Virus record (IMG/VR): IMGVR_UViG_3300025687_000309
Location: 1 to 24,746 of that record
Reading direction: 5' to 3' (one strand)
Length of the DNA stretch: 24,746 nt
Source: a virus
Under the pieces are notes generated by a model. The model saw only the letters and a list, made by a program, of their open reading frames with translations, had not been told where the DNA came from and did no database searches. Positions 2,972-23,278 of this stretch are shown one piece after another; position 1 is the stretch's first letter; each line of letters begins with the position of its first letter. A program made the translations under genes and the position numbers.

Positions 2972-2979
2972 ACTGCCCA
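2972..2979 (+). promoter_or_regulatory. ACTGCCCA start-associated element, copy 1
   Basis: ACTGCCCA sits between the Shine-Dalgarno-like GAGAGGA (2966-2972) and the ATG at 2980, directly abutting the start codon. The related CTGCCCA also occurs at 2954-2960. The same octamer fills the spacer before four other genes (6459, 17247, 18992, 20907). Confidence 0.65.
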
Positions 2980-3207
2980 ATGGCACATGTTGTCGCAATC
3001 GCAACGCTGGTGACGAGTGATCGTTCCGGTAATCGGATCAGACTCCAGGAGGGAACGGTGTGGGATGCCAGCGATCCGTTCGTCCGCCATCGTCCTGATC
3101 TGTTTCGTCCGCTCGACGGTGAGAGGCGTGCGCCGGTGGAGCAGGCGTCTGCTGCACCTGGTGAGGTGCGTCGTGGGCCTGGTCGTCCGAAGAAGTCGTT
3201 GCAGTGA
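2980..3207 (+). CDS. Small basic-tailed protein, unknown function
   Basis: A 75-residue protein. The N-terminal half (VVAIATLVTSDRSGNRIRLQEGTVWDASDPFVRHRPDLF) resembles small proteins that often follow capsid genes in actinophages, where a short beta-rich module is followed by a 'D.P.V..HPD.F' motif. The C-terminus RRGPGRPKKSLQ looks like an AT-hook (GRP core flanked by basic residues), suggesting nucleic-acid contact. The start is supported by GAGAGGA at 2966-2972. The stop overlaps the GTG of the glycosyltransferase (GTGA), so the two are likely translationally coupled. Function not known; a head or packaging accessory role is only inferred from position. Confidence 0.7.
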   Translation: MAHVVAIATLVTSDRSGNRIRLQEGTVWDASDPFVRHRPDLFRPLDGERRAPVEQASAAPGEVRRGPGRPKKSLQ

Positions 3208-3974
3208 ATCGGAAGCAGCGTCGAGCGGAGAAGCCGCAAAGACCGATGCCTGGTTCGTCGGACAAGGTGGCGCTCGCCTATGTGCATGGCGCCGAGGTGA
3301 CGCACAGTTGGCATCAGTCGCTGATGGCGATGGTCGCTCACGATGTGGCACACCATCAACGGTTGATCGGTGGCGGGTGGTTGGCTACGAAATATGGCAC
3401 TGGCGGGATCGTCGCAGCACGCAATGACACCGCACGCGGATTCACACATGACATGCCGCACTGCGATTGGATGTTGTGGACTGATACCGATATGGGGTTC
3501 GAGGCGAAAGCGCTCGATGATTTGATGGCGGTCGCCGATCCTGTTGACGCTCCGATCGTCGGCGGTTTGTGTTTCATGATGCGCGAGGTTGAGATGGATG
3601 GTGTCGGCGGGTATCTCGTCCAACCTGCACCGACTGTCTTCCAATGGCATCAGGTGGATGGTGTGTCGGGTTTCCGTGTGGAGCGTGACTATCCACGGGA
3701 CACGATGCATCAGGTGGCGGCGACAGGTTCGGCGTTCATCCTGATTCACAAGTCTGCGTTCCAACGGATCGAGCAGCAGTACGGACCGTCGTGGTATAGC
3801 CCTGTGTTCAATCAGTCGTCGCAGTCGTGGATCTCCGAGGATCTGTCGTTCTGCATGAGAGCGAATGCATGTGAAATTCCGATCCATGTTCACACCGGTG
3901 TGAAGACGACGCACTACAAGTCGCTGTGGCTCGACGAGCGTGTGTATGACCGCATGGAAGTGATCGGTGATTGA
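3204..3974 (+). CDS. GT-A-type glycosyltransferase (GT2-like)
   Basis: Predicted nucleotide-sugar glycosyltransferase of 256 residues. The metal-binding DxD motif is DTDMGF (Asp94, Asp96) after a hydrophobic strand (CDWMLWTD). It is preceded by an ARNDTARGF segment (72-80) typical of the GT-A core and followed by SEDLSFCMRA (211-220), which supplies the catalytic-base-type acidic residue. HVHTGVKTTHYK (228-239) holds a conserved C-terminal histidine. The lysine/arginine-rich first 12 residues look like a disordered tail. The gene starts with GTG in a GTGA overlap, and the next gene encodes a GT-C-like membrane protein. Its place between capsid and connector genes suggests modification of a virion protein or a host surface polymer; the substrate is not visible. 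Confidence 0.85.
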   Translation: MNRKQRRAEKPQRPMPGSSDKVALAYVHGAEVTHSWHQSLMAMVAHDVAHHQRLIGGGWLATKYGTGGIVAARNDTARGFTHDMPHCDWMLWTDTDMGFEAKALDDLMAVADPVDAPIVGGLCFMMREVEMDGVGGYLVQPAPTVFQWHQVDGVSGFRVERDYPRDTMHQVAATGSAFILIHKSAFQRIEQQYGPSWYSPVFNQSSQSWISEDLSFCMRANACEIPIHVHTGVKTTHYKSLWLDERVYDRMEVIGD

Positions 3975-3976
3975 GC

Positions 3977-4783
3977 ATGTCTGGCCCTGACGCTGCTCGG
4001 TATTGGCATCTCGCCGGTGGTGGTGTGGTGCCTCGCCCGTTTGTGTTGCGTCGTCTTCTGCCGTGGGTGTGCGGTCAGGATGAGCGACGCTGGTGGATTG
4101 TGTGTGTTGGCGGATGGTTGCTGACTGGCGCAGGGATGTTCGGGTGGGTGGTGCAGCGTGCCGATTGGCGTGTCGCTGCCGCTGCGACAGTGCTGCTTCT
4201 CGGGCTGCCTGGCATCCTCGGACCGCATGTGGTGACACCTGTCGGCGTGGACATTGTGGCAACAGGTTTTGTCCTGTGTGGTGTCGCAGCGTTCGAGGCG
4301 GGCGTGTGGTGGATGGCGTTGTCGTTGTGGTTGATCGCCGCCGGCGTGAAGGAGTCCGCTCCGGTGTGGGCTGCGTTGTTCGCCTGGTCTCCGGTAGCGC
4401 TGGTGGCGTTGATCGTCCCTGCGGCGATCGGGGTGGTGCGGAAGCCTGGCCCTGATCCGACAGGGCCGAAAGGACAGTTCATCGCCGATCATCCTGTGAA
4501 GTCAGCGCTGATGTTTCATCGTGGTCGATGGCGTGACGGTTGGTTATTGGTCGCTCCGTGGGGTGTGACGTTGGCGGCGCTCGTCGATCCGTCGTGGACG
4601 TTGTTCGCCGTTCTGGTGGTGGCGCATCTACAACTGCTCGTAGCGACGGACACGGTACGTCTGGTGGCGCATGGTGCAGGTCCGGTCATGGCGCTGGCGG
4701 CTGCGGAGACGATCCCTGTCGAATGGTTGCTGTTGGCGTGCGTTCTCCATGTGGTGTGGTTCAAGCAGCCGGAGCGGGTGTGA
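3977..4783 (+). CDS. Polytopic membrane protein, candidate GT-C-fold glycosyltransferase
   Basis: A 268-residue integral membrane protein with about seven to nine hydrophobic helices, for example WWIVCVGGWLLTGAGMFGWVV, VAAAATVLLLGLPGILG and WLLLACVLHVVWF. The N-terminal RPFVLRRLLPWVCG resembles the 'PyryR.L.P' signature at the first helix of many GT-C or EpsG-like proteins. WLIAAGVKESAPVWAALFAW resembles the conserved 'l..lfKE..' helix of those families. These are motif-level similarities, so the enzyme class is inferred. ATG at 3977 is preferred; a TTG at 3971 would add two residues and overlap the upstream stop. It is coupled to the preceding glycosyltransferase, consistent with a lipid-linked sugar pathway, although a superinfection-exclusion membrane protein is an alternative. 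Confidence 0.65.
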   Translation: MSGPDAARYWHLAGGGVVPRPFVLRRLLPWVCGQDERRWWIVCVGGWLLTGAGMFGWVVQRADWRVAAAATVLLLGLPGILGPHVVTPVGVDIVATGFVLCGVAAFEAGVWWMALSLWLIAAGVKESAPVWAALFAWSPVALVALIVPAAIGVVRKPGPDPTGPKGQFIADHPVKSALMFHRGRWRDGWLLVAPWGVTLAALVDPSWTLFAVLVVAHLQLLVATDTVRLVAHGAGPVMALAAAETIPVEWLLLACVLHVVWFKQPERV

Positions 4784-4798
4784 GAGTAGGATGATGTC

Positions 4799-5440
4799 GT
4801 GGCTGTCACTCGTCTGATCGAACCGCAATCACTCAAGGATTTGCTGGGCATTGCTTTCACAGACGCGGAGGATGACGCTCGGCTGATCATGGCGTGTGAT
4901 GCGGCGACCTCGATGATTCAGGCGCATTGCGACAGGCAGTTCATCGCCGACACGACAGCGACACCGAGAGTGTTCGTTGCGGGCACTCCGTGGATCGTCC
5001 AGGTGGATGACATCTCGACGACAACCGATCTTGTCGTGAAGACCGACGAGGATGACGACGGCGTGTTCGAGACGACATGGGCGTCGACCGACTACCAGTT
5101 GGAACCGTTGAACGGGCGTTTGTCTGGACAGCCTTGGCCGTATACCTCGCTGCGTGCTGTCGAGTCTCGGGAGTGGCCGTTGGAATACGGGCGTGCGGTG
5201 GTGGAGATCACTGCACGTTGGGGCTGGAAGACGAGCGACGCAACCGTCGTCGACTATCTCCCGTCGTCGGTGGTGCAAGCAGCGCAGATTCAAGCGACCT
5301 CGCTCTACAAGAGCGCTGAGGCTCCGCTCGGTATTGCAGGGTTTGGTGATATCGGCATCATGCGTTTGCGTCAGGCTTTGCATCCTGTCGCTGCTTCGCT
5401 GCTCGCGCCGTTCCGCAAAGAGACTGTGCTGGTGGCTTGA
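4799..5440 (+). CDS. Head-tail connector (gp6-like / adaptor)
   Basis: A 213-residue protein with the layout of phage head-tail adaptors. The helical N-terminus has SLKDLLGIAFTDAEDDARL and then MACDAATSMIQAHCDRQF, the usual first two helices. A beta-rich middle follows (TDYQLEPLNGRL, GRAVVEITARWGW). The C-terminal helices are SSVVQAAQIQATSLYKSAEAPLG and a basic end. Such proteins form the dodecameric ring below the portal. The start is GTG at 4799, with AGTAGGA at 4786-4792 upstream. Its stop overlaps the next ATG (TGATG). Confidence 0.82.
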   Translation: MAVTRLIEPQSLKDLLGIAFTDAEDDARLIMACDAATSMIQAHCDRQFIADTTATPRVFVAGTPWIVQVDDISTTTDLVVKTDEDDDGVFETTWASTDYQLEPLNGRLSGQPWPYTSLRAVESREWPLEYGRAVVEITARWGWKTSDATVVDYLPSSVVQAAQIQATSLYKSAEAPLGIAGFGDIGIMRLRQALHPVAASLLAPFRKETVLVA

Positions 5441-5847
5441 TGGCTGCGACGCTCGCCCAGATGGCTGACGGGTTGGAGGCTCGTCTCGGAACGATCGACG
5501 GGTTGCGGGTGTTCGATCATGTGCCTGATTCGTTCGCTGTTCCGTGTGCGTTCGTCATGCCGGAGTCAGTGAATTTCCACGGTGCGTTTGCCGGTGGTGA
5601 TGCGGAGACAGAGTGGACGGTGACCGTCATTGTCGGTCGTGTCGCAGGCAGAGCAGCGCAGAAGTCGCTCTACGAGTTCTGTTCTTATTCTGGTTCTCGT
5701 TCGGTGCGTGCTGCGATCGAAGGTGATCTGAGCCTTGGCGGTCGAGTGCAAACCTGCGTGGTCGACACGGCGCAGAACATGAGGATGATCAGTCAAGGCG
5801 ATGGTGACTACTTGGCGGTCGACTTTCGTTGTAGGATTCATCCGTGA
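5440..5847 (+). CDS. Tail terminator / tail completion-like protein
   Basis: A 135-residue protein following the connector. The pattern of an N-terminal helix (LAQMADGLEARLGTIDGLRVFDHVPD), a strand with proline (VPCAFVMPES), then beta strands (WTVTVIVGRV) and a C-terminal strand block (YLAVDFRCRIHP) fits tail terminator or tail-completion proteins that cap the tail tube at the neck. The assignment relies on fold pattern and on the conserved position between connector and major tail protein. ATG at 5440 is favoured over TTG at 5437 because it overlaps the upstream stop. It ends in a TGATG overlap with the next small gene. Confidence 0.65.
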   Translation: MAATLAQMADGLEARLGTIDGLRVFDHVPDSFAVPCAFVMPESVNFHGAFAGGDAETEWTVTVIVGRVAGRAAQKSLYEFCSYSGSRSVRAAIEGDLSLGGRVQTCVVDTAQNMRMISQGDGDYLAVDFRCRIHP

Positions 5848-6038
5848 TGATCTACGAAGTCGTCGGTCCTCGGAGGGTGTGCGGCTATTGGCCTGGCTCG
5901 CATCTCACCGTCGACGATCTCGCAGATGCGAACATCGATCATTTGATCGCCGCCGGCCATATCGTCAAAGTCTCAACTGCCCAAACCAAGAAAGCATCCA
6001 ACGATGACGGCGCTGCCGTCGAGGAGACAGAGCAGTGA
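5847..6038 (+). CDS. Small neck-region protein, unknown
   Basis: A 63-residue protein with an N-terminal beta hairpin (MIYEVVGPRRVCGYWPG) and the helix LTVDDLADANIDHLIAAGHI, ending in an acidic, low-complexity tail (DDGAAVEETEQ). Similar short proteins occur beside connector genes in actinophages, but I cannot assign a function. ATG at 5847 overlaps the preceding stop; GTG at 5844 is possible and adds one residue. The stop overlaps the GTG of the major tail protein. An internal copy of ACTGCCCA lies at 5976-5983, not next to a start. Confidence 0.65.
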   Translation: MIYEVVGPRRVCGYWPGSHLTVDDLADANIDHLIAAGHIVKVSTAQTKKASNDDGAAVEETEQ

Positions 6039-6442
6039 GCAAATTCGTCCTGTTGTCGCCATCCATCACAGTAGGCGGGGTGGACCTGAGTGACCACATT
6101 GCCTCGGTGACGATCACCGAAAGCTACGCCGAGGTCGCCACGACGGCGTTCGGTGACAGCGCCGTCACCCGAATCGCCGGTCTCGGCGATCATTCGATCT
6201 CGCTCGACTTCCACGAAGACTTCGCTTCGGGTGAGGTTCATGCCACGATCGCTCCGCTTGTCGGTTCAACCTCGACGGTGTCGGTGAAGCCGGTGAATGA
6301 CACCACCTCAGCGACGAACCCTGCCTTCTCGGCGACGATCCTCGTCACCGAATGGCCGTTGCTGAATGGCGCTGTCGGCGATCTCGCTTCGGCGTCGGTC
6401 ACCTGGCCAATCTCGGGTGCGATCACCACCTCCACCTCCTGA
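6035..6442 (+). CDS. Major tail (tube) protein
   Basis: A 135-residue protein that polymerises into the tail tube. It shows the actinophage tail-tube pattern: VGGVDLSDHIASVTITESYAE near the N-terminus, then FGDSAVTRIAGLGDHSISL with the characteristic 'FGD....R.aGL.d.s' motif, a DFHEDFASG segment, and beta strands such as STVSVKPVN, FSATILVTEW and ASASVTWPIS, ending in a Thr/Ser tail. The GTG start at 6035 overlaps the upstream stop (GTGA). Seventeen bases after its stop begins the tail assembly chaperone gene, the standard order. Confidence 0.88.
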   Translation: MSKFVLLSPSITVGGVDLSDHIASVTITESYAEVATTAFGDSAVTRIAGLGDHSISLDFHEDFASGEVHATIAPLVGSTSTVSVKPVNDTTSATNPAFSATILVTEWPLLNGAVGDLASASVTWPISGAITTSTS

Positions 6443-6451
6443 CCGAAAGGT

Positions 6452-6459
6452 ACTGCCCA
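6452..6459 (+). promoter_or_regulatory. ACTGCCCA start-associated element, copy 2
   Basis: ACTGCCC at 6452-6458 runs directly into the ATG at 6459 (ACTGCCCATG). GAAAGG at 6445-6450 is the Shine-Dalgarno-like tract. The octamer occupies the whole spacer, as at copy 1. Confidence 0.65.
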
Positions 6460-6734
6460 TGATCGCACTGTGGAAGGTGCGTGTCGTCAAGACTGACGGC
6501 ACGAAAGCGACCTACGACGTGAGCCCTCGCACCATTGTGGCGTTCGAGCGCCATTTCAAGTCGGGACTGTCTCAGGCTTTTGCGAAAGAGCAGAAGAACG
6601 AGCACACCTATTGGCTCGCTTGGGAAGCTGAGAAGCAGGCTGGCGTCGTCGTCAAGCCGTTTGATTCGTGGCTGGAGGATGTGCTCGGTGTCGATATTGA
6701 GGTGGAGCGCATCCCTTTCGACGAAACAGTTTGA
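6459..6734 (+). CDS. Tail assembly chaperone, short form
   Basis: A 91-residue protein (MIALWKVRVVKTDG... to ...RIPFDETV) directly downstream of the major tail protein and upstream of the tape measure gene, the invariant place of the G / GT-type tail assembly chaperones. It is rich in aromatic and helical segments (TIVAFERHF, TYWLAWEAEK, SWLEDVLGVDIEVER). The start at ATG 6459 is fixed by GAAAGG at 6445-6450 and by the ACTGCCC element that abuts it. In-frame codons upstream of 6459 overlap the tail-tube gene and are not needed. The zero frame stops at 6732-6734, 13 bases after a slippery heptamer. Confidence 0.85.
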   Translation: MIALWKVRVVKTDGTKATYDVSPRTIVAFERHFKSGLSQAFAKEQKNEHTYWLAWEAEKQAGVVVKPFDSWLEDVLGVDIEVERIPFDETV

Positions 6735-6862
6735 CGCATCTTGTCGCCCAGTTGTCGGTGACGACTGGGATCGCACCGAACGATCTGCTCGACGCTCCGT
6801 GTGGCATGATTGAGACGATGGTCGACGTGTTGAACGAGCGTGCGAAGCAGGCGAAACGATGA
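6459..6862 (+). CDS. Tail assembly chaperone, -1 frameshift product
   Basis: A -1 slip at 6713-6719 extends the chaperone into a second frame that is open until TGA at 6860-6862, giving about 134 residues (87 before the slip and 47 after). The extension reads SLTHLVAQLSVTTG, then IAPNDLLDAP, and ends NERAKQAKR. This has the hallmark pattern of the second chaperone domain in actinophages, where 'L.HL.AeLa..TGi.P..LL' precedes a terminal 'ERAK.A'. The second frame has no good start codon of its own, which supports fusion by frameshifting. The stop overlaps the next ATG (ATGA). The long form is expected to bind the tape measure protein during tail assembly. Confidence 0.85.
6713..6719 (+). other. 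Slippery heptamer C CCT TTC for -1 frameshift
   Basis: In the chaperone zero frame the codons are ATC CCT TTC, giving C_CCT_TTC, which fits X_XXY_YYZ exactly. After slipping by one base the two tRNAs re-pair on CCC and TTT. The zero-frame stop follows 13 bases downstream. I did not identify a strong downstream pseudoknot by eye. Confidence 0.75.
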
Positions 6863-7431
6863 GCGATGTCGGCATTGTCACGAACGTCACCGGTGTGCGT
6901 GAGGTGTTCCGTGAGGTGCGTAAGTTCGAGCCGAAGCTGGTGGCGAAGAGTCAGGCGCAGATGAAAGCGGCGGCGCATCCGATCGTCGTTGAGGCGCAGC
7001 GCAACATCCGCATCGCCGCTTCGTCTTCGGTGTATCTCGGTGGTGGTGGTAACGCTCCGTTGTCGGGGTGGAGCCGTGGCGGTCGTCTCGGCTGGGATAC
7101 CGGCAAGGTGGCGAAGGGTGTGTCGATTCGTGCTGGTGGCAGTTACTACAAGTCGAAGCACCAGTGGGAAATCATCCGTGCGTTCCAATCGAGTCCTGCC
7201 GGGATGCTTTACGACTGGGCTGGTCGCACCGGGAAGTATGTTGATGCCCGTGGACGTGTCGGGCGTGGACGTGCGTTCGTCGACAATCTGCCACGGTTCG
7301 GTTACATCCGAGGCTCCAAGCACAGCCGTACGATCTTCCCTGCGATCGCTGCTACCCGCAGTGTCGTGAGTGAACGGTTCGTTCGTGTGATCGATCGTGT
7401 GACTGCCGACATTCAGAACAGGATTAGCTGA
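6859..7431 (+). CDS. Minor tail / tail-completion-like protein between chaperone and tape measure
   Basis: A 190-residue basic protein. An N-terminal helix (GVREVFREVRKFEPKLVAKSQAQMK) leads into a Gly/Ser-rich section (SSVYLGGGGNAPLSGWSRGG), then WEIIRAFQSS, the motif AGMLYDWAGRTG, and a C-terminal helix (FVRVIDRVTADIQ). The 'a..fd.AGR' motif and early long helix recall HK97 gp10-type tail-completion proteins, which in many phages lie upstream of the tail tube. Here the gene sits between chaperone and tape measure, an arrangement also known in some actinophages. ATG at 6859 overlaps the frameshift-product stop, and TGATG joins it to the tape measure gene. The function is inferred. Confidence 0.6.
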   Translation: MSDVGIVTNVTGVREVFREVRKFEPKLVAKSQAQMKAAAHPIVVEAQRNIRIAASSSVYLGGGGNAPLSGWSRGGRLGWDTGKVAKGVSIRAGGSYYKSKHQWEIIRAFQSSPAGMLYDWAGRTGKYVDARGRVGRGRAFVDNLPRFGYIRGSKHSRTIFPAIAATRSVVSERFVRVIDRVTADIQNRIS

Positions 7432-9317
7432 TGGCAAAACCAAAAGGCATCTCGGTATCGGTCATCTCGGAGTTCAACCCCAAAGGTTTCATCGAGGCAC
7501 AGAAAGAAGCGGAAGGTCTCGCTGGCGAATTCAAGAAGCTGGCAGGCAAGGCGGCGGCGGTGTTCGCTGCTGCGAAGGTTGGACAGTTTGCGAAAGATTC
7601 GATCGGTGCAGCGTCCGATCTGGCGGAGTCGGCGAACGCTGTCAACGTCACGTTCGGTGATGCGGCTGACGGCATCCTCAGTTTGAGTGAGGCTGCTGCA
7701 ACGACAGTCGGTTTGTCTGCGTCGGAATTCAACTCGTTCGCAGTTCAGTTCTCAGGGTTCACGCAGCAGATCGCAGGTTTCGGTGGTGATGTCGCCGCTG
7801 TGACTGACGATCTGACGGTGCGCATCGCAGACTTCGCTTCGGTGATGAACCTCGATGTGGCCGAAGCGGCGCAGGTGTTCCAGTCTTCGTTGGCTGGGGA
7901 GACAGAACCGATCCGCAAGTTTGGTGTCGATCTGTCGGCGGCTGCGGTCGAGTTGTATGCGCTCGAAACGGGACTGATCCGTAACAAGGGTGAGCTGACT
8001 GAGTCGATCAAAGTCCAGGCACGCTACGGCCTGTTGATGAGGTCGACGGAGAAGGTCGCCGGCGACTTCGCTAACACGTCTGATTCGTTGGCGAACCAGC
8101 AACGGATTCTGAACGCCGAGTTCGAGAATGCTCAGGCAGAACTCGGCGAGAAGCTGCTGCCGATCGCCAACGATTTCACAGGCGCACTGCTCGACATGTT
8201 GGATGTCGCCGAGAAGTTGGGTGTCGTCGATTTCATCGGGAACGTCCTAGCGATCGAAGAGTTGGGCACGAACATCGGACGCAATCTGCGCTCAGTGTTC
8301 GACGCTGGTGCCCGTGAGAATTTCCGTTACGCCAACTCGGTGCAGAACGCTGAGGATCTGTTCAAGCAGTTCGACTACACGCTGCTGGAGGGTCGTTCAT
8401 CGTTGGCAGAGATCCAAGAGTTGGTCGCCGACAATGTCGGTGCGAACTCCGATCTCGTCGATGTGTTGCACCTGTCGAATCTGGTGTTCGTCGAGCAGAC
8501 GAAACGGATCGAGGAGGCCGCCGAGGCGCAGGAGCGCTCGTACTGGAGCGCTCGTTACGGTGCGTCTGGTTTCGATGAGTTGAAGGATGCGGTCGAGGAT
8601 TCGAAGGATGAACTGATCGAGTTCGTGTCGGTGTGGGATGAGGAGATCGCCCGCATCACACGCGAGCAGGATGTTGCCGACATCGCCGAGGATTTCGACG
8701 AGTTGCGTGAGTTGGCGATGGAGGCGTTCGTCGCTGCGAGCGATGGCGCTGTTGATGCCGATGAGAAGGTGAAAGAGTTTGAGGACGGACTCCGTGACAG
8801 CTATCTGCAGGCGTTGGAGTTGGCAGGTCAGTTGGACGGGTTGCCTGACGAGGTGGTGACGGAGATCAGGCAGGAGTTTGAGACTCGGGATCTGGATGCG
8901 TTGGAGGTGCGTCTGCACAATCTGGCGTTGGGTGTTGTCGCTCCGTTGGAGTTCATGATGACACCGGAGACGGCTGCGATCGCCGGCTATTTGGCGATGG
9001 GCACGTTGCGTGAGATCACTGCGCCCGCTCCGAACATTCCGTCGTTGGGTACGGGCCCGATCGGTGTCGGCGCGTACGGCGGTTTGGTGACACAGCCGAC
9101 GTTGTCGCTGATCGGTGAGCGTGGCCCGGAGATGGTCGTTCCTTTGTCGCAGATGCCTGGTGCGTCGCCGCTCCCGTCAGGGATGGGTGGTGCGATGCAT
9201 GTCACGATCAACTTGCCTGCGGGATCGAACGGTGATGATGTGGTGCGTGCGTTGCAACGGCAAGCTCGACGGACCGGCACATTGTCAGTGCCGACGACAG
9301 CGAAGGTGCGACGGTGA
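7431..9317 (+). CDS. Tail tape measure protein
   Basis: A 628-residue protein, mostly alpha-helical, that sets tail length. The N-terminal part has FKKLAGKAAAVFAAAKVGQFAKDS and AVNVTFGDAADGILSL, then FTQQIAGFGGDVAAVTDDLT and FQSSLAGETEPIRKFGVDLS. This is the familiar tape-measure region with 'sl.Ge..plr.fGv.l'. Long acidic helices follow (residues about 300-490). The C-terminus YGGLVTQPTLSLIGERGPEMVVPL is a classic tape-measure signature. At roughly 0.15 nm per residue this suggests a short tail near 90-100 nm, a rule-of-thumb estimate. It starts with a TGATG overlap and ends in a GTGA overlap with the next tail gene. Confidence 0.92.
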   Translation: MAKPKGISVSVISEFNPKGFIEAQKEAEGLAGEFKKLAGKAAAVFAAAKVGQFAKDSIGAASDLAESANAVNVTFGDAADGILSLSEAAATTVGLSASEFNSFAVQFSGFTQQIAGFGGDVAAVTDDLTVRIADFASVMNLDVAEAAQVFQSSLAGETEPIRKFGVDLSAAAVELYALETGLIRNKGELTESIKVQARYGLLMRSTEKVAGDFANTSDSLANQQRILNAEFENAQAELGEKLLPIANDFTGALLDMLDVAEKLGVVDFIGNVLAIEELGTNIGRNLRSVFDAGARENFRYANSVQNAEDLFKQFDYTLLEGRSSLAEIQELVADNVGANSDLVDVLHLSNLVFVEQTKRIEEAAEAQERSYWSARYGASGFDELKDAVEDSKDELIEFVSVWDEEIARITREQDVADIAEDFDELRELAMEAFVAASDGAVDADEKVKEFEDGLRDSYLQALELAGQLDGLPDEVVTEIRQEFETRDLDALEVRLHNLALGVVAPLEFMMTPETAAIAGYLAMGTLREITAPAPNIPSLGTGPIGVGAYGGLVTQPTLSLIGERGPEMVVPLSQMPGASPLPSGMGGAMHVTINLPAGSNGDDVVRALQRQARRTGTLSVPTTAKVRR

Positions 9318-14824: not shown

Positions 14825-14995
14825 ATGACCAGAGCAACTGCCCAGCCCACCTACGCCGACTACCTGCGCTACTGCGAATACGCCAAGGTCGATCCGTATC
14901 CTCGTGACGGATTTGAAGGCACCAGCATCAACGCCGTGATGGTGCGTCGCATCGTCGCTCAATGGGTCGCTAAGAACGCAGAGGAGATCGCCTGA
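14825..14995 (+). CDS. 56-residue protein, unknown
   Basis: A small protein (MTRATAQPTYADYLRYCEYA... to ...KNAEEIA) started at ATG 14825 by AAGGAGA with normal spacing. It contains aromatic YADYLRYCEYAKVDPYP and a C-terminal helix (NAVMVRRIVAQWVAKNAEE). No family recognised. An ACTGCCCA copy lies inside it at 14837-14844, twelve bases after the start codon's first base. It begins a run of very small, closely packed genes. Confidence 0.6.
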   Translation: MTRATAQPTYADYLRYCEYAKVDPYPRDGFEGTSINAVMVRRIVAQWVAKNAEEIA

Positions 14996-15976: not shown

Positions 15977-16097
15977 CATTTGGCGTTGCCCTGCCTGCGG
16001 GCAGACGATCACTGTGCTGGTGCCTGTCACCACACCACCGACCTGCACCCGTCACGCCGGCGGAGGCAAAGCAATGAAGAAAGAGGAGAAGCCATGA
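15969..16097 (+). CDS. 42-residue zinc-ribbon protein
   Basis: ATG 15969 starts eight bases before the upstream stop in a different frame. WRCPACGQTITVLV gives Cys7 and Cys10, and TCTRH gives Cys26 and His29: a CxxC...CxxH ribbon. The tail KKEEKP is charged. Small proteins of this form are common in phage early regions and their function is generally unknown. It ends in an ATGA overlap with the next gene. Confidence 0.65.
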   Translation: MSDIWRCPACGQTITVLVPVTTPPTCTRHAGGGKAMKKEEKP

Positions 16098-16378
16098 ACC
16101 GTTCGAGGATCATCGTCACCGTGCTGCACCCTGACGGCACCTATCACCTGCTGGAGGTGCCATCCGATCATCGACTCACCGTCGACGGGATGGGCGCTGT
16201 CATCCTGCGAGACCTCACCCACACCACGGGCGACGCATCCGAGATCGAGGTCGACGACATGCCGACACAACTGCGGTTGCTCGCACACCCGTTCACCGGC
16301 CTCACGATGAGCAACAAGGACCGCTCCGTGATCGCTCACGCCGCCGACCTCATCAAGAAGCTGGAAGCGAACCGATGA
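16094..16378 (+). CDS. 94-residue protein, unknown
   Basis: Starts at ATG 16094 with GAGGAG at 16083-16088 and an ATGA overlap. The first half is beta-rich (RIIVTVLHPDGTYHLLEVP, GAVILRDLTHTTGD) and the second carries the helix SNKDRSVIAHAADLIKKLEANR. No family recognised and no enzymatic signature is seen. It is coupled by an ATGA overlap to the hexapeptide-repeat gene. Confidence 0.6.
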   Translation: MNRSRIIVTVLHPDGTYHLLEVPSDHRLTVDGMGAVILRDLTHTTGDASEIEVDDMPTQLRLLAHPFTGLTMSNKDRSVIAHAADLIKKLEANR

Positions 16379-17046
16379 CTGATTCGCAGATCCCTGACGG
16401 TTGGCATCGTCACCCGAACGGTGGAGGACTCGTCGAAAACACGGCATGCGTTGAAAACAGCGCCTACATCGCTCATGACGCTCGGGTGTACGACAACGCT
16501 CATGTGTACGACAACGCTCAGGTGTACGACAACGCCCAGGTGTCGGGCAACGCTCAGGTGTACAACAACGCTTGGGTGCACGACAACGCCCAGGTGTCGG
16601 GCAACGCTCGGGTGTACGACAACGCCCAGGTGTCGGGCAACGCTCGGGTGTACGACAACGCTCATGTGTTCGGCGACGCTTGGGTGTACGACAACGCCCA
16701 GGTGTCGGGCAACGCTCGGGTGTACGACAACGCTCATGTGTTCGGCGACGCTCGGGTGTCGGGCAACGCTCAGGTGTACGACAACGCCCAGGTGTCAGGC
16801 GACGCTGACCTCAACCATCGGCGAGACATCCTTATGATCGGGCCGATCGGCAGCGAACATCAAACGATCACCGTTTTCTGCACAGCAACCGGACATTTAG
16901 TGTCAGTCGGCTGTTGGCAAAATCATCACATCGACGAGTTGGCAGACGAAGTTCAACGTCGAGCACCAGAACACGCCGACGAGTATGCGGCTACGGAAAC
17001 CCTGATCCGTTTACGAATCAAAGAATGGGAGGATCGCCGTGACTGA
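16375..17046 (+). CDS. Hexapeptide-repeat left-handed beta-helix protein
   Basis: A 223-residue protein. After a short start (MTDSQIPDGWHRHPNGGG), residues about 19-144 form roughly 21 six-residue repeats of the type x-V-(Y/S/F)-(D/G)-(N/D)-A, the pattern of a left-handed parallel beta-helix with three repeats per turn, about seven turns. A C-terminal domain follows: DILMIGPIGSEHQTITVF, then VSVGCW and HHIDELADEV, ending in RIKEWEDRRD. I recognise this combination from bacterial and phage proteins of unknown function. Being in the early module it is unlikely to be a tail fibre. No acyltransferase catalytic residues are evident. Its first 19 bases after the initial base are repeated at the start of the gene at 17039. 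Confidence 0.82.
   Translation: MTDSQIPDGWHRHPNGGGLVENTACVENSAYIAHDARVYDNAHVYDNAQVYDNAQVSGNAQVYNNAWVHDNAQVSGNARVYDNAQVSGNARVYDNAHVFGDAWVYDNAQVSGNARVYDNAHVFGDARVSGNAQVYDNAQVSGDADLNHRRDILMIGPIGSEHQTITVFCTATGHLVSVGCWQNHHIDELADEVQRRAPEHADEYAATETLIRLRIKEWEDRRD
16376..16394 (+). repeat. 19-bp direct repeat at gene starts, copy 1
   Basis: TGACTGATTCGCAGATCCC, starting at the second base of the ATG of the beta-helix gene, is identical to 17040-17058, the start of the 59-residue gene. Confidence 0.9.
16483..16806 (+). repeat. Tandem 18-bp repeats (18 units) coding the beta-helix
   Basis: Eighteen in-frame 18-bp units encode uninterrupted hexapeptides such as QVSGNA, RVYDNA, HVYDNA and HVFGDA. Some blocks recur almost identically, for example a 36-bp QVSGNA-RVYDNA pair (three times) and the HVFGDA unit (twice after RVYDNA). 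The high DNA identity, beyond what the protein pattern needs, suggests recent expansion or recombination. Confidence 0.9.
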
Positions 17047-17218: not shown

Positions 17219-17239
17219 CCAGCACCAACACAGAAAGCA

Positions 17240-17247
17240 ACTGCCCA
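17240..17247 (+). promoter_or_regulatory. ACTGCCCA start-associated element, copy 3
   Basis: ACTGCCC at 17240-17246 is followed directly by ATG 17247. CAGAAAG at 17231-17237 is a weak Shine-Dalgarno-like tract. The arrangement is the same as at 6452. Confidence 0.65.
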
Positions 17248-17513
17248 TGAAAACCAGAGACAAGACCACGATCCAACTCACCGCCGACCTCCACATCGAG
17301 GTGGAGCGCAGCATCTTCCAGCACCACAACGGCGAAGTCTGGGTTGCGCTCACCACCCAGAACCGCACCTATCGAGGCTCCTGGAGCGACGGTGAAATCG
17401 ACGCCGCCGAAGGTGTCGCCATCAAACAGTTGAAGCGTGAGTTCAACCGCTGGCTGATGTCGACGACGATCGACAAGACCGATCCGCACGCCGACGCTGC
17501 GAGGCGCATCTGA
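17247..17513 (+). CDS. 88-residue protein, unknown
   Basis: Starts at ATG 17247, fixed by the adjoining ACTGCCC element. The protein is beta-rich at first (TTIQLTADLHIEVERSIFQH, GEVWVALTTQNRTYRGSWSD) and then helical (AAEGVAIKQLKREFNRWLMS). It resembles no family that I can name. The stop overlaps the RecB-like gene (TGATG), so it may be a small partner of that nuclease. Confidence 0.65.
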   Translation: MKTRDKTTIQLTADLHIEVERSIFQHHNGEVWVALTTQNRTYRGSWSDGEIDAAEGVAIKQLKREFNRWLMSTTIDKTDPHADAARRI

Positions 17514-18970
17514 TGAACGACGATCTGATGACATCCGAAACCCGGCGAGACCGCTGGGGCCGATACCTCGTCGTGCCACCGCAAGGCGGCAAACCGCAGG
17601 GCTACACGCGTGCCACCACCATCGCCAAAACACTCGATGACACCTCGTCGCTGATGGCATGGGGTGAACGGATGACAGCGATCGGGCTCGCCCGCCGCCC
17701 TGATCTCGTCGCCACGATCGACACAGTCAAAGACGACAAAGACGCACTCAACCGGATCTGCAGCGCAGCGAAAGAAGCAGGTGGTGCGACAGTCAGGCGT
17801 GACCTCGGCACAGCCCTCCACAGCATCCTCGAACGCTGGTGGACCGAACCAGGCTACGTCCCACCTCCAGCACACATCGCCGATGTGAACGCTGTCTGCG
17901 ACGCACTCAAAGCACACCAGCTCACCGTCGTCGACGGCATGAACGAACGGATCGTCGTCCACGACACACATCGTGTCGCCGGCACCTTCGACCTCATCCT
18001 CGAAGACGCCTCAGGGTTGCGCACCATCGCCGACATCAAAACCGGCAGCAGCGTCAAGTTCGGTGCGCTCGGCTTCGCCGTGCAGTTGAGCATCTACGCG
18101 ACCGCCGACAACCTCTACAACCAAGGCAGCGCCGCAGACGGCAGCGAAGACGTGCGTGAACCGATGCCCGAGGTGCGACAAGACCAGGCGATCATCATCC
18201 ACGTCGAACCAGGCTCAGGTGTGTGCGAACTCCACCGGCTCACCCTCGACCCGACCCTCGTCGACCTCGCCATGACCGTGCGCCGAATGCGAGCACGCAA
18301 AGACCTCATCGACGTGCTCCCCAACATCCGCAACCCGCGAGACCAATGGTTGCGTGACAGGGTGTGGCGACTCGTCGACGAAGACCGGCAACGAGTCGTC
18401 GCAGCCTGGCCACGACACATCGCCACACCCACCAAACACGTCGAGCCGTACACAGACGCAGAGATCGACGAGATCATCCCAGCGCTTGAACTTGTCGAAC
18501 GAGCGTTGGAGTTCCCGTTTGCCGACCCTGATCCTGGCAAACCTGCACCAGCCAAGAAGCCACGGAAGAAGGCGCAACCGGCTGCACCGTCCACGGAGGC
18601 ACCCGCAGAAGGCCCGCTGCGGGCCGAACAGCTCGACGACCTCCGCATGTCGTTCGCACAACTTGACGAGCGTCAGAAAGCGCTCGTGGGTGAACTCGTC
18701 GCCGAAGCACATGCCGCCGACCTCCCGATCCGAGTACAAAAGATGCCGTCACGACGCCGATGCGAGATCGCCGCCGGCATCTTCGAAGCGCTCACCCGCT
18801 GGCCCGACGACCACGAAACCCGAATGCGAGATCTGCTCGCTGTCGCCCTTGACGACGACACCGTGCTCATGCCAACCTTGCCGCTCGGCGCAGCAATCGG
18901 ATTGCTCGACGACGAGCAGGCTGCCACCTGGCGGCAAACCATCTCCCTCGGCGCAACCGTCGAGGCGTGA
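17513..18970 (+). CDS. RecB-like PD-(D/E)XK exonuclease
   Basis: A 485-residue protein whose residues 95-200 carry the RecB/Cas4-type nuclease motifs: GTALH (His103), VAGTFDLIL (Asp160), TIADIKTG (Asp174, Lys176) and AVQLSIYA (Gln191, Tyr195). It is expected to degrade or resect DNA ends, for recombination or host DNA turnover. After about residue 340 a Pro/Ala/Lys linker leads to a C-terminal helical domain (LRAEQLDDLRMSFAQLDERQKALVGELV) of unknown role. No helicase domain is fused, but a SNF2-type helicase lies 2 kb downstream. ATG 17513 overlaps the upstream stop. Confidence 0.85.
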   Translation: MNDDLMTSETRRDRWGRYLVVPPQGGKPQGYTRATTIAKTLDDTSSLMAWGERMTAIGLARRPDLVATIDTVKDDKDALNRICSAAKEAGGATVRRDLGTALHSILERWWTEPGYVPPPAHIADVNAVCDALKAHQLTVVDGMNERIVVHDTHRVAGTFDLILEDASGLRTIADIKTGSSVKFGALGFAVQLSIYATADNLYNQGSAADGSEDVREPMPEVRQDQAIIIHVEPGSGVCELHRLTLDPTLVDLAMTVRRMRARKDLIDVLPNIRNPRDQWLRDRVWRLVDEDRQRVVAAWPRHIATPTKHVEPYTDAEIDEIIPALELVERALEFPFADPDPGKPAPAKKPRKKAQPAAPSTEAPAEGPLRAEQLDDLRMSFAQLDERQKALVGELVAEAHAADLPIRVQKMPSRRRCEIAAGIFEALTRWPDDHETRMRDLLAVALDDDTVLMPTLPLGAAIGLLDDEQAATWRQTISLGATVEA

Positions 18971-18982
18971 CACCAAGGAGAC

Positions 18983-18990
18983 ACTGCCCA
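18983..18990 (+). promoter_or_regulatory. ACTGCCCA start-associated element, copy 4
   Basis: ACTGCCCA at 18983-18990 is one base short of the ATG at 18992, with AAGGAG at 18975-18980 upstream. Together with the preceding C it is complementary over 8 bases to the loop GGGCAGTG of the hairpin at 2906-2940. Confidence 0.65.
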
Positions 18991-18991
18991 C

Positions 18992-19447
18992 ATGAATGAC
19001 CTTCACGAACTGATCGAGCAGCATCGTTGCGATGATCCTGCCGACACGACCGCTGCGATCTTTGCTGCGATCCGACTCCCTGAGCGTTACCGCTCACTGT
19101 TCTTCGCTGTGGTGCGTGACGAATGCCGACGGATGGCACGTTACGCAACTGTGGCGAACCTGACCGGCACGACCGACGACCAAGGGCAGTACGAAACCCA
19201 ATGCGTCTCCGTCGTCGGTCGTGCCGCTTGGCTTTCTGAACGCATCTACTGCGGTGGGGAGCGAGGCTACGTCGTCATCGGACAGATGACCGTCGAAGAC
19301 CACCTTGCACGCATCCAGTTCCAGCAGTCGTTGGTGAACGGCATCAGCCGTGACATCGAACGTCACCAGGAATGGATCGCACAGATCGAAGCCACCCCGA
19401 ACGCCGTCTGCCTCGACGACGTGTACGTTCCGGCGGTGGCATCATGA
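18992..19447 (+). CDS. Phage protein of unknown function (DECRR motif)
   Basis: A 151-residue protein started at ATG 18992 by AAGGAG plus the ACTGCCCA element. The N-terminal region has LIEQHRCDDPADTTAAIFAAIRLPERYRSLFF, then VVRDECRRMARYATVANL, a pattern I recognise from conserved hypothetical early genes in actinophages ('lf.pvlrdECRr..R'). The second half includes ISRDIERHQEWIAQIE, a helix. No catalytic motif is clear. Neighbours are a RecB-like nuclease and the IS110-like protein, with which it overlaps by four bases. Confidence 0.7.
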   Translation: MNDLHELIEQHRCDDPADTTAAIFAAIRLPERYRSLFFAVVRDECRRMARYATVANLTGTTDDQGQYETQCVSVVGRAAWLSERIYCGGERGYVVIGQMTVEDHLARIQFQQSLVNGISRDIERHQEWIAQIEATPNAVCLDDVYVPAVAS

Positions 19448-20433
19448 ACTCGCATCCGACCAATACCTCTCCGACTCCCAGCGAAGGCACGTCGGATGCG
19501 ACCCCTCTGCAACTCGGCCAAACCGAAAACGAAAACCATGAGGGGAACGCCGAGTTGCACCTTCTCGACCCTGACCACACTCTGCACGAAACCCATACAC
19601 CTCCCGTCAGGGTCGACCCTTCTGCCGACGACCATCACCAAGGCGAAACCCACCGGCGTCTCGTCGTCGGCAACTTCTCCAACCAACCATCGTCAGCAAA
19701 TGGATTAACGCAGAGCCAAGGTTCTCGCGCTGGCGATGGTTGGTTGGAACTCCGCATCTGGGCAGAAATGTTCGAAGACGCAATGCAACAACGCATCGCA
19801 GCGAACAACCGTGCAGAACGAGGCGGAGTCGACCCGAGCGTCTACGCCGCCTACACCGACGCACTCCAAAAAGCGGAGAACGTCTGCGCACTCGAAATGC
19901 GACGCTGCTACCGGCGAGTCGTACCCGAGTCGATCCGCACATGGCAGAAGAACACGCACGGCCTCGGCGAACACGCCATCGCACGCCTCCTCGGCCACCT
20001 CGGACATCCCAGAATCGCCACACCACACCATTGGGAAGGCACTGGCAGCGCACGCACCCTCATCGCAGATGAACCGTTCGAGCGCACCATCGGCCAACTC
20101 TGGCAATACTGCGGACATGGTCGAGCAGAACGCAAACGGAAAGGGATGACCGCCACCGAACTCGCAGCGCAAGGCTCACCGGTGTTGAAGATGATCGTCC
20201 ACATCATCGCCGAATGCACCATGAAGCAGAAGGCGTCGCCGTACCGTGTCGTCTACGACGACATCAAGACCAAATGCGCAGACAAGACGCACAGCGTCGA
20301 ATGTGTCCGCTGCGGACCGAGCGGCAAACCTGCGCAACCAGGCACACCGTGGAAACCTGGACACATCCACGCACACGCACTCAGGATCACCGGCAAGGAA
20401 ATCCTGCGAGACCTCTGGCTCGTCGCCAGATGA
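19444..20433 (+). CDS. Protein with IS110-transposase-like C-terminal (Transposase_20-like) domain
   Basis: A 329-residue protein starting at ATG 19444 (ATGA overlap). The first roughly 95 residues are low-complexity and polar. A helical segment (ELRIWAEMFEDAMQQRI to LEMRRCYRRVVPESI) is followed by HGLGEHAIARLLGHLG, a helix-hairpin-helix-like G-x-G element, then QLWQYCGHGRAERKRKG, SPVLKMIVHIIAECTMK, PYRVVYDDIK, and the end HALRITGKEILRDLWLVAR. This order resembles the C-terminal half of IS110-family transposases. The RuvC-like DEDD domain of those enzymes is absent, and I cannot place their catalytic serine. It is probably a DNA- or RNA-binding relative rather than an active transposase. A CVRC pair lies in a variable loop. 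The similarity is motif-level. Confidence 0.6.
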   Translation: MNSHPTNTSPTPSEGTSDATPLQLGQTENENHEGNAELHLLDPDHTLHETHTPPVRVDPSADDHHQGETHRRLVVGNFSNQPSSANGLTQSQGSRAGDGWLELRIWAEMFEDAMQQRIAANNRAERGGVDPSVYAAYTDALQKAENVCALEMRRCYRRVVPESIRTWQKNTHGLGEHAIARLLGHLGHPRIATPHHWEGTGSARTLIADEPFERTIGQLWQYCGHGRAERKRKGMTATELAAQGSPVLKMIVHIIAECTMKQKASPYRVVYDDIKTKCADKTHSVECVRCGPSGKPAQPGTPWKPGHIHAHALRITGKEILRDLWLVAR

Positions 20434-20470
20434 ACCAACCAACCCCAACACACCAAAGGAACCAACAACT

Positions 20471-20890
20471 ATGAACGACATCGACGACTTCACCTCCGGC
20501 GGCACCAGCCTGCCCGCAGTCAAGTTCTCAGAGATCGGAGACACCATCTCCGGCCAGATCGTCGACGGACGCAAACTCGAAGACCGCGCACCCGACGGCA
20601 CCGTCAAAACCTGGTCGAACGGCGACCCGATGCACGTCTACGTGTTTGACCTCGACACTGATGGTGACGGCAGCGCCGATCACAGCCTGTGGGTCCGAGG
20701 CAACATGGTGAAGGTGCTGCGCCAGGCGCTCGCCGACGCCGGCGTCAAGCCCAGCGACAACCCGAAAATCACGGTCAAGTTCACCGAATACGGCGAACCG
20801 TCACGGAAGGGCTACAGCGCACCCAAACTGTTCAAGGCGAAAGCGGAGAAGGTGGCGAAGCCGACCGCCGCCGACCTCGACGACTTCTGA
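20471..20890 (+). CDS. Single-stranded DNA-binding-like protein
   Basis: A 139-residue protein from ATG 20471, with AAAGGA upstream at 20455-20460. The opening FTSGGTSLPAVKFSEIGDTISGQIV, then MHVYVFDLDTDGDG, SLWVRGNMVKVLRQAL and the final basic/acidic tail match the phage SSB-like family of OB-fold proteins found beside RecB-like nucleases in actinophages. The terminal DLDDF resembles the acidic tip used by SSB proteins to recruit partners. It would protect replication intermediates. The methyltransferase downstream has the same last four residues, VDDF versus LDDF. Confidence 0.72.
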   Translation: MNDIDDFTSGGTSLPAVKFSEIGDTISGQIVDGRKLEDRAPDGTVKTWSNGDPMHVYVFDLDTDGDGSADHSLWVRGNMVKVLRQALADAGVKPSDNPKITVKFTEYGEPSRKGYSAPKLFKAKAEKVAKPTAADLDDF

Positions 20891-20899
20891 GATTGGACC

Positions 20900-20907
20900 A
20901 CTGCCCA
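20900..20907 (+). promoter_or_regulatory. ACTGCCCA start-associated element, copy 5
   Basis: ACTGCCC at 20900-20906 abuts the ATG at 20907, ten bases after the SSB stop. The upstream Shine-Dalgarno match is poor (GATTGGA), so this is the copy where the element may matter most for start selection. Confidence 0.65.
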
Positions 20908-22277
20908 TGACATTCGAAGACTTCATCGCAAGTCGACAACACCTCGCAAGCGTCGGCGGGTTCGAGCCCGTCTACATGCCCGACGGCCTGTTCGACTTCC
21001 AACAACTACTCGTCGACTGGTCGATCCGCACAGGTCGAGCGGGACTGTTCGCAGACTGCGGACTCGGCAAAACCTTCATGGAGATGGTGTGGGCGCAAAA
21101 CGTCCACCTACACACAGGCAAGCCGGTCCTCTATCTGACACCTCTCGCAGTCGGATTCCAGGCACAAAAAGAAGCCGACAAGTTCGGTATCGAAGCTGCC
21201 GTATCCAGAGACGGGGAGATCGTTGCACCGATCACCATCACGAACTATGAGCGTCTCGACAAGTTCGACTCGTCACAGTTCGCCGGCGTGGTCTGCGACG
21301 AATCATCAGCGATCAAAGCATACGACGGGCAACGTCGAGCAGTCGTAACGGAGTTCCTCCGATTGATGCCGTACCGGCTGCTCGGCACCGCCACAGCAGC
21401 ACCGAACGATTACATCGAACTCGGAACATCCAGCGAAGCCCTCGGGCACCTTGGCTACATGGACATGCTCAACCGGTTCTTCATCAACAAGAACAAAACG
21501 AGCGACACCCGTGGTCGGTGGCAAGATCGAGGGCAGGGCGGCTGGAGATTCAAGGGCCACGCCCACGAACCGTTCTGGAAATGGGTGTCGTCGTGGGCGA
21601 GAGCGATCCGCAAACCGAGTGACTACGGTTTCGACGACGGAGGGTTCGACCTGCCCGCATTGCAGCATCGGACCACCGTCGTCGAAACAACCACACCTCG
21701 ACCCGATCGACTGTTCGACCTCCCAGCAGTCGGGCTCCACGAAGAACGTGAAGAGCAACGCAGAACGATCAACGAACGATGCGAAACCGCTGCGGGGCTC
21801 CTTGTCGATTGCGACTCGGCAGTCGCCTGGTGCCACCTCAACGAAGAAAGCAAACTGCTCTCTCGCATGATCGACGGAGCTGTTGAAGTTTCCGGCTCCG
21901 ACAGCGTCGACGTGAAAGAGGAGAAGCTTCGAGCGTTCAGCGACGGCGAAATCCGTGTGCTGGTGACAAAACCGATCATCGGTGCGTGGGGCCTCAACTG
22001 GCAGCACTGCAACCGCATGTCCTACTTCCCGAGTCACAGTTACGAGCAGTACTACCAGGCGATCCGACGATCATGGAGATTCGGTCAGCAACGTGACGTA
22101 CTCATCGACGTGGTCACCACCGAAGGCGGCAAAGCGGTCCTCGAGAACCTGCAACGCAAAGCAAAACAGGCAGACGAAATGTTCGACGCTTTGATGCGCC
22201 ACATGACTGACGCCATCCGCATCGACAACGACAACAAGTTCACACAACCAATGGAGGTACCCACATGGCTCTCGTAG
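20907..22277 (+). CDS. SF2 helicase, SNF2-like
   Basis: A 456-residue DNA-dependent ATPase. Motifs in order: Q-like DFQQLLVDW (30-38), Walker A ADCGLGKT (49-56), motif Ia YLTPLAVGFQ, the II box DESS (131-134) in place of DEAH, motif III GTATAAPND (160-168), and in the second RecA domain TKPIIGAWGLNW (354-365) and QAIRRSWRFGQ (384-394) with arginine fingers. Similar phage proteins work in replication or restart. Its gene is preceded by ACTGCCC and overlaps the methyltransferase gene by 13 bases, so the two are likely functionally paired. Confidence 0.87.
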   Translation: MTFEDFIASRQHLASVGGFEPVYMPDGLFDFQQLLVDWSIRTGRAGLFADCGLGKTFMEMVWAQNVHLHTGKPVLYLTPLAVGFQAQKEADKFGIEAAVSRDGEIVAPITITNYERLDKFDSSQFAGVVCDESSAIKAYDGQRRAVVTEFLRLMPYRLLGTATAAPNDYIELGTSSEALGHLGYMDMLNRFFINKNKTSDTRGRWQDRGQGGWRFKGHAHEPFWKWVSSWARAIRKPSDYGFDDGGFDLPALQHRTTVVETTTPRPDRLFDLPAVGLHEEREEQRRTINERCETAAGLLVDCDSAVAWCHLNEESKLLSRMIDGAVEVSGSDSVDVKEEKLRAFSDGEIRVLVTKPIIGAWGLNWQHCNRMSYFPSHSYEQYYQAIRRSWRFGQQRDVLIDVVTTEGGKAVLENLQRKAKQADEMFDALMRHMTDAIRIDNDNKFTQPMEVPTWLS

Positions 22278-23254
22278 CCGACCAACTCGTCACCGACAAG
22301 TTCGCCATATACAACGGCGACTGCATGGATGTGATGAGAGCACTGCCCGACCAGTCGATCCACCTGTCGGTGTACTCGCCACCGTTTGGAGGTCTGTACC
22401 ACTACAGCTCCAGCGACCGAGACCTGTCCAACGCACGCAACTATGACGAGTTCTTCGAGCACTACGACTACGTCGTCGCCGAACTCGCACGCATCACGAT
22501 GCCGGGCCGGATGACGGCGGTTCACTGCATGGACGTGCCGACAGGGAACAGCGGGAAGGATGCCCTGACCGATTTCCCTGGCGACATCATCCGGCAGCAC
22601 GAGCGGTTCGGGTTCGACTACATCGCCAGATACTCGATCTGGAAGGAACCGCTCGCAGTTCGGAATCGCACGATGGCGAAGAACCTCGCCCACAAAACCA
22701 TCGTCGAAGACTCGTCGAAATGCTCTGTGGCGTCAGCCGACTACCTGCTGGTGTTCCGCAAGAAAGGCGAAAACCCGATCCCGATCGAACATCCAGTCGG
22801 GTTACTCGACTACGCCGGTGAACGTGAAATCCCACAGGAACTCCACCGCTACCGAGGGTGGACCGGCAAGCAGATCGAGAACCGTTACTCGCATTGGATT
22901 TGGCGGCAGTACGCTTCCGCATTTTGGGATGACATCCGTATCGGTCGAGTGCTTCCGTTCCGTGAAAGCCGAGAGGATGAGGACGAGAAGCACATGCACC
23001 CGCTGCAACTCGACGTGATCCACCGGTGCTTGCAACTGTGGAGCAACCCTGGCGAGCGTGTCTTCACGCCGTTCATGGGTGTCGGTTCTGAAGTGTTCGA
23101 ATCGGTGAAGTACGGTCGGTTCGGGATCGGTGCAGAACTCAAACCGTCCTACTTCCGTCAGGCGATCAAGAACTTGCAAAGCATTGACAGCATTGACCTC
23201 GACGAGCCGACATTGTTCAGCGACACCGAACCGCTGGTCGTCGACGACTTCTGA
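22265..23254 (+). CDS. DNA methyltransferase (N4/N6, beta-type order)
   Basis: A 329-residue S-adenosylmethionine-dependent DNA methyltransferase. Motif IV is YSPPFGGLY (SPPF at 38-41), and the AdoMet-binding motif I is FMGVGSEVF (270-278) after HPLQLDVIHRCLQLWS, so the order is IV then I, as in beta-class enzymes. SPPF is compatible with cytosine-N4 or adenine-N6 methylation. In motif I the usual DPF is TPF. It overlaps the helicase gene by 13 bases and ends with VVDDF. There is no restriction nuclease next to it, so protection of phage DNA from host restriction is likely. The target site cannot be read from the sequence. Confidence 0.87.
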   Translation: MALVADQLVTDKFAIYNGDCMDVMRALPDQSIHLSVYSPPFGGLYHYSSSDRDLSNARNYDEFFEHYDYVVAELARITMPGRMTAVHCMDVPTGNSGKDALTDFPGDIIRQHERFGFDYIARYSIWKEPLAVRNRTMAKNLAHKTIVEDSSKCSVASADYLLVFRKKGENPIPIEHPVGLLDYAGEREIPQELHRYRGWTGKQIENRYSHWIWRQYASAFWDDIRIGRVLPFRESREDEDEKHMHPLQLDVIHRCLQLWSNPGERVFTPFMGVGSEVFESVKYGRFGIGAELKPSYFRQAIKNLQSIDSIDLDEPTLFSDTEPLVVDDF

Positions 23255-23270
23255 CCTGCCCACCACACCA

Positions 23271-23278
23271 ACTGCCCA
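23271..23278 (+). promoter_or_regulatory. ACTGCCCA element, copy 6 (next to a hairpin)
   Basis: ACTGCCCA lies 17 bases after the methyltransferase stop, with a partial copy CTGCCCA at 23256-23262. No ATG follows directly; a GTG at 23284 opens the frame of the next gene but lies inside a strong hairpin. It shares the gene-junction context of copy 5. Confidence 0.45.

Follow-up and report, generated by a model that had tools for sequence, protein, structure and literature searches.

A stretch of viral DNA, the whole of IMG/VR record IMGVR_UViG_3300025687_000309 (24,746 bases, a fragment of a genome; here called the window), carries the short element ACTGCCCA at several translation starts and, directly after its capsid gene, a hairpin whose loop is complementary to that element. 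In related viruses the start sequences differ in step with the loop, an indication that the virus, probably one of actinobacteria, may control several of its own genes by RNA-RNA pairing. We consider it probable that the hairpin is a phage-encoded antisense RNA that pairs with translation starts in trans, and in cis at the neighboring gene for a head-tail connector-like protein, most likely repressing them. An earlier reading of the window from its letters alone (the original prediction) had described the element as an independent start-associated signal. A likely regulatory role, as suggested there, holds up, but the independence does not, as the element is half of a pair whose partner, the hairpin loop at 2906-2940, co-varies with it across phages.

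A repeated element in the Shine-Dalgarno/ATG spacer

The eight copies of ACTGCCCA listed in the original prediction (beginning at 2972, 5976, 6452, 14837, 17240, 18983, 20900 and 23271) were all exact and all on the + strand, as are the hairpins, start elements and target genes of the window described below, with none on the - strand. The octamer had been estimated to occur by chance about 0.4 times per strand; our expectation for the two strands combined was 0.79, and eight copies were not reached in any of 100 shuffles. Its core, CTGCCCA, was found 10 times forward and twice in reverse. As had been described, the copies at 2972, 6452, 17240, 18983 and 20900 fill the spacer between the Shine-Dalgarno (SD) sequence and the ATG, ending 0 to 1 bases before the ATG or overlapping it; the SD-like stretch 5' of them is clear in three cases (GAGAGG, GAAAGG, AAGGAG) and weak in two (GAAAG, TTGGA). 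In an unbiased ranking in which the motif was not named, ACTGCCC and CTGCCCA were the leading 7-mers just 5' of the gene starts called in the window by a home-made caller, confirming the association with starts.

The first of the five elements (2972-2979, with the SD GAGAGG and the ATG at 2980) belongs to the post-capsid gene, which encodes a 75-aa head-tail connector-like protein (2980-3207; PHROG 9538, head-tail connector, E value of 1.2e-7). The second (6452-6459) precedes a gene of 91 aa (6459-6734), an open reading frame (ORF) both read and called, and the third (17240-17247, an exact copy) an 88-aa called ORF (17247-17513), whose stop overlaps the start of a PD-(D/E)XK exonuclease (17513-18970; PHROG 466, E value of 2.4e-59; PF12705). 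The exonuclease is possibly coupled to this preceding gene, and its orthologues in three relatives bear the element directly at their own start. The fourth element (18983-18990) stands before a 151-aa gene from the ORF list (18992-19447) and the fifth (20900-20907) at a DNA helicase gene (20907-22277; PHROG 62, E value of 5.5e-49). The 91-, 88- and 151-aa products had no Pfam or PHROG family hit. The "tail chaperone" of the original prediction, the 91-aa gene, therefore bears a purely positional label.

A hairpin after the capsid gene displays the complement

The hairpin at 2906-2940 lies directly after the capsid gene and 5' of the connector gene. It has a 13-bp stem (2906-2918/2928-2940) and the loop UCGGGCAGU (2919-2927), with the core GGGCAGT at 2921-2927; the loop sequence TCGGGCAGT is the reverse complement of the element. 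The predicted fold has an energy of -30.7 kcal/mol (z score of -5.9), and no other hairpin of the window has the loop core GGGCAGT. Predicted duplexes between the loop and the starts of the five genes ranged from -14.4 to -16.4 kcal/mol (-14.5 for the connector gene, -16.2 for the helicase and -16.4, the strongest, for the 151-aa gene), the next best start reaching -10.2 kcal/mol. A further copy of the core (2954-2960) lies upstream in the leader, between the hairpin and the SD of the connector gene.

Nine relatives each contained one strong hairpin with their own loop core, always after the capsid gene, giving 10 of 10 genomes with the window included; one pair of relatives had a second, weak candidate besides the post-capsid one. 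These hairpins were picked by a simple pairing score. Their stems were compared in register, which a MAFFT alignment of whole hairpins loses, and had diverged yet stayed paired: in 12 close comparisons, 23 of 23 double changes kept the pair and all single changes gave G-U pairs. A known family of the Rfam database was rejected as an identification, since no family matched at the gathering score in ten related loci and the window gave only sub-threshold matches.

Loop and start sequences change together in relatives

A search with the capsid protein recovered 80 loci, and in about 36 of these the capsid was 63-85% identical to that of the window; among GenBank phages, only short pieces of the helicase matched the window. 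Relatives of the helicase were rejected as a comparison set, being too distant and lacking the element at their helicase start, and a 14-base pattern scan of viral contigs, in which the matches listed were at about chance level, was not used. In the relatives with 63-85% capsid identity the hairpin is kept, and the element recurs at two genes: the post-capsid connector gene, in the same position as 2972-2979, and a gene of about 90 aa a little further downstream, taken from its position to be the tail chaperone, where most relatives have it, altered in step with the loop. The orthologous sites are conserved in relatives of about 70-75% nucleotide identity. The original prediction had staked itself on enrichment at starts and on conservation in close relatives, and both were found.

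A GGGTAGT loop core (L068/L097 and L079) is accompanied by CTACC(C) elements, among them ACTACCC-ATG at the chaperone start, about 4-5 kb distant. A GGGCGGT core (L089 and L093 to L096) is accompanied by ACCGCC(C) elements, with ACCGCCC-ATG as the start sequence; they were found at the chaperone start of L093 and L095, at the exonuclease start of three genomes and at the starts of WhiB-like genes in two. L090 combines the loop TGCAGTCTC with GAGACTGCA-ATG at the chaperone start. Placed on a capsid tree, these sequences imply that the loop changed independently no fewer than four times (GGGCGGT, GTGCAGT and two origins of GGGTAGT, counted twice because it is spread across well supported branches), and the chaperone start mirrors every one of these changes. 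The tree is of the capsid only; recombination could have moved loop and targets jointly, still matched.

The same correspondence was seen across all SD-preceded starts, where phages with a GGGCAGT loop had CTGCC 34 times, CTACC 0 times and CCGCC 8 times; the corresponding counts were 0, 7 and 0 in GGGTAGT phages and 2, 2 and 17 in GGGCGGT phages. With the hairpin-adjacent genes excluded, 18 of 449 starts in ten genomes matched the loop of their own genome over at least 7 nt, the independent matches being somewhat fewer because G002/G009 and G003/G004 are near relatives. Among 1,000 sets of permuted loops the mean was 1.1 matching starts and the maximum 7, none reaching 18; these figures measure strength and do not amount to a blind test, because the pattern had been sighted by eye before the loop was tested. 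The matrix of loop class against genome class lay on its diagonal (8/0/0, 0/4/0 and 1/0/8), and swapping loops between classes destroyed the matches. At starts, the element was found in gene-sense orientation 22 times and in antisense orientation twice. In G008 the exonuclease bears its element on the strand opposite to the capsid operon, an arrangement that would therefore require action in trans, and in L068 the element-bearing targets include a TerL-like gene (recognized by eye from its sequence).

Leader architecture and the arrangement in more distant phages

The leader between the hairpin and the connector gene often has two or three tandem copies of the element, placed directly against the base of the stem, about 11 nt further on and in the SD-ATG spacer. 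All internal mismatches between leader copies and loop are G-U pairs. A complement of the loop of at least 7 nt was found within 60 nt 3' of the post-capsid hairpin in 32 of 70 non-redundant capsid loci (shuffles, mean of 3.4 and maximum of 9) and one of at least 8 nt in 15 (mean of 0.7 and maximum of 3). Many remoter capsid relatives with unrelated loops, for example L103, L115, L117, L133 and L139, have the loop complement directly adjoining the hairpin. Because no convincing distant copies were found in these remoter phages with the cis arrangement only, we infer that this arrangement is the older and that the clade of the window extended it to further genes.

Seven of the distant loci (L115, L117, L118, L121, L133, L136 and L139) share a near-constant geometry, with a stem of 11-14 bp, a loop of 8-10 nt and a linker of 4-5 nt followed by the loop complement, and otherwise differ in sequence. 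The cis arrangement was also observed in L287, a contig of Mycobacterium palustre, where the post-capsid hairpin has the loop TTTCCAGAG and CTCTGGAAA follows 4 nt past the stem; as it sits in the genome of a cultured bacterium, it is usable for experiments. G019 (L135) and L300/L301 have the loop TTTCATCGGAC together with several SD-preceded TCCGATG starts and are possibly a second, independent case with distant targets, for which chance is hard to judge because the element itself contains ATG. Phage isolates whose capsids are related (Gordonia WelcomeAyanna, Mycobacterium Brujita, Mycofy1, REQ1 and prophiGD90-1) gave no match between loop and element.

A proposed mechanism and the evidence that weighs on it

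We propose that the leader RNA of the connector gene would fold into a hairpin of 13-16 bp displaying GGGCAGU, and that this loop would pair with the ACUGCCC that several mRNAs have between SD and AUG. At the connector gene the pairing would be in cis, or between one leader RNA and another; for the remaining targets, among them the chaperone, the helicase and the exonuclease-linked gene, it would be in trans. The resulting GC-rich spacer duplex of 7-8 bp would hide the start and block binding of the 30S subunit, and translation of the target genes would fall as late (capsid-region) RNA builds up. The acting RNA may be the leader, a processed 3' piece of it or a separate small RNA, and the extra leader copies may buffer the loop. 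The targets mix late and early functions (connector, chaperone, helicase, the exonuclease or the gene coupled to it, and the TerL-like gene of L068), which fits a dosing of these genes against capsid-region RNA.

The computations show the hairpin, its complementarity to the element, the association with starts, the joint change of loop and targets and the gene-sense orientation, and the proposed pairing of loop and element is well supported; that pairing is the mechanism, that the RNA exists in the cell in a form able to act in trans and that it represses rather than activates is what we infer. We put forward more tentatively, at a little below even chances, the broader idea that the hairpin beside the capsid gene is an RNA "master key" that represses late and early genes of the virus in trans through one loop-target code, rewritten several times.

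Several observations weigh against the antisense proposal. Most of the sequences compared are fragments that come from metagenomes. In L089 and L094 the chaperone start has no element, the leader copies of L063 and L067 are only partial, and L074 has no match. Terminal mismatches show no G-U bias, and among the one-mismatch elements of gene starts wobble pairs are in the minority. The leader copy nearest the hairpin is often directly adjacent to the stem, a position in which a pseudoknot in cis would be strained. In the window, the copies at 23256 and 23271 stand without any start. Finally, no clear promoter was found 5' of the window hairpin, so that a separate small RNA is only a possibility; L063 has consensus-like -10 and -35 sequences just 5' of its hairpin.

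Alternative explanations

The element could instead mark double-stranded DNA sites at which a phage regulator protein binds ACTGCCC at the starts and, inverted, in the hairpin region, with a specificity that has changed between phages. In duplex form, loop and element are one sequence in two opposite orientations, so a drifting protein specificity would also yield co-variation; the stoperators of Cluster A phages, as described in PMC4351075, are likewise asymmetric and run with transcription, and the pair at 23256/23271 without a start would suit such sites. We nevertheless regard this explanation as unlikely. It leaves unaccounted for that the inverted copy invariably forms the loop of a long hairpin whose stem changes are compensatory, that the start elements sit between SD and ATG and have the sense of their gene (22 against 2), also at the exonuclease of G008 on the opposite strand, and that the internal leader mismatches are of the G-U type, all of which favor RNA over DNA.

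Were the pairing to activate or coordinate its targets, for instance by stabilizing mRNAs or recruiting ribosomes, all of the pairing evidence would apply equally, since the sequence does not fix the sign of the effect. From antisense RNAs in general, however, a duplex of 7-8 bp between SD and AUG is known normally to inhibit 30S binding, and we find activation improbable for this reason.

We give still less credit to a split explanation, in which the connector gene has a leader structure acting in cis and the other starts share a translation signal unconnected with it. The remoter phages with the complement beside the hairpin and no convincing distant copies (L103, L115, L117, L133, L139 and others) would be explained, but not the distant starts of the window's clade, which track the loop through four changes. 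Nor did a stand-alone signal find a partner in the ribosome. Complementarity to host 16S rRNA, a check named in the original prediction, had no support in three actinobacteria, whose 16S rRNA contained no consistent complement and none near the 3' end, and was rejected; from one phage to another, moreover, the element varies with the loop of the phage itself. Chance or a recent duplication of short sequences, conceivable for an octamer and a search steered by the finding, is scarcely credible given the unbiased 7-mer ranking, the permutation tests and the conservation at orthologous sites in relatives of about 70-75% nucleotide identity, which already contradicts it.

Further features of the window and its relatives

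Of the remaining copies, that at 5976 lies within coding sequence, and that at 14837-14844, an exact octamer in codons 5-7 of the gene at 14825-14995, is a possible target. After the stop of a methyltransferase gene, CTGCCCA (23256) and ACTGCCCA (23271) stand in tandem (23256-23278) with neither SD nor ATG. These two copies resemble the leader copies of L076 and L082, and the region (23252-23322) continues into a long GC-rich hairpin with a nonmatching loop and no start codon nearby. A terminator-like GC-rich hairpin, read in the sequence 3' of the capsid gene (2823-2851) and distinct from the antisense hairpin, was unscored in a terminator scan because it has no 5-T tail. Small accessory ORFs lie between capsid terminator and antisense hairpin in L066, L071, L072, L074, L075, L077 and L081, and some accessory ORFs of post-capsid regions have a near-consensus sigma-70 promoter 5' of them (for example TTGACA..TATAAT in L066). 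The gene at 16375-17046 contains a tandem 12-residue repeat (VYDNAQVSGNAR-like) resembling that of hexapeptide-type repeat proteins.

Comparison with known systems

Trans-acting antisense and small RNAs with a hairpin-loop seed block translation starts, for example plasmid antisense RNAs and the actinobacterial 6C/B11 RNA, the subject of PMC10470900. The system proposed here shares features of this class, namely, a predicted structured RNA, a loop complementary to the initiation regions of several target mRNAs and co-variation of seed and target. It differs in that the hairpin lies in a leader beside a phage capsid gene, that it would target the phage's own genes and that the loop/target code has been rewritten several times, and it is known here from sequence alone. 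Phage-encoded small RNAs, such as lambda aQ, likewise control phage genes by pairing; the retrieved passages of PMC12197685 describe no actinophage, capsid-linked or hairpin case, and in the open-access papers searched we found nothing comparable, neither a phage hairpin nor a small RNA that is linked to a capsid gene and targets starts. Cluster A stoperators, as described in PMC4351075, are also many short asymmetric sites oriented with transcription, but are bound by a repressor protein, whereas the sites of the window fill the space between SD and ATG and are matched by a hairpin loop.

The original prediction drew a parallel with the start-associated sequences (SAS) of Cluster K mycobacteriophages, which stands for the position at starts and fails otherwise. 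SAS and extended SAS (ESAS), described in Cluster K (PMC3203893) and in Microbacterium cluster EF (PMC7302621), are short asymmetric repeats in one orientation just 5' of the starts of unrelated genes, conserved at orthologous genes; the octamer of the window is likewise repeated, in one orientation and directly 5' of start codons. The SAS consensus, the 13-mer GGGATAGGAGCCC in Cluster K (PMC3203893) or GGGAAAGGACCCC, covers the SD, whereas ACTGCCC(A) lies 3' of it. ESAS are 17-bp imperfect inverted repeats at about half of the sites, whereas the clade of the window has one strong hairpin per genome, by the connector gene. The SAS of TM4 and Adephagia (first 50 kb) were rejected as the same system, as no comparable hairpin with an SAS-complementary loop was found there and a few weak hits shared only GGGCTC. 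Whether RNA or protein binds SAS was left open for Cluster K (PMC3203893). The start-associated repeats of several actinophage clusters have been reported with no partner known for them; in the present case the sequence itself shows one, and natural compensatory changes on both sides make the question of RNA or protein directly testable. If the proposal is true, one RNA code would tie phage genes together and could be rewired by a change of loop.

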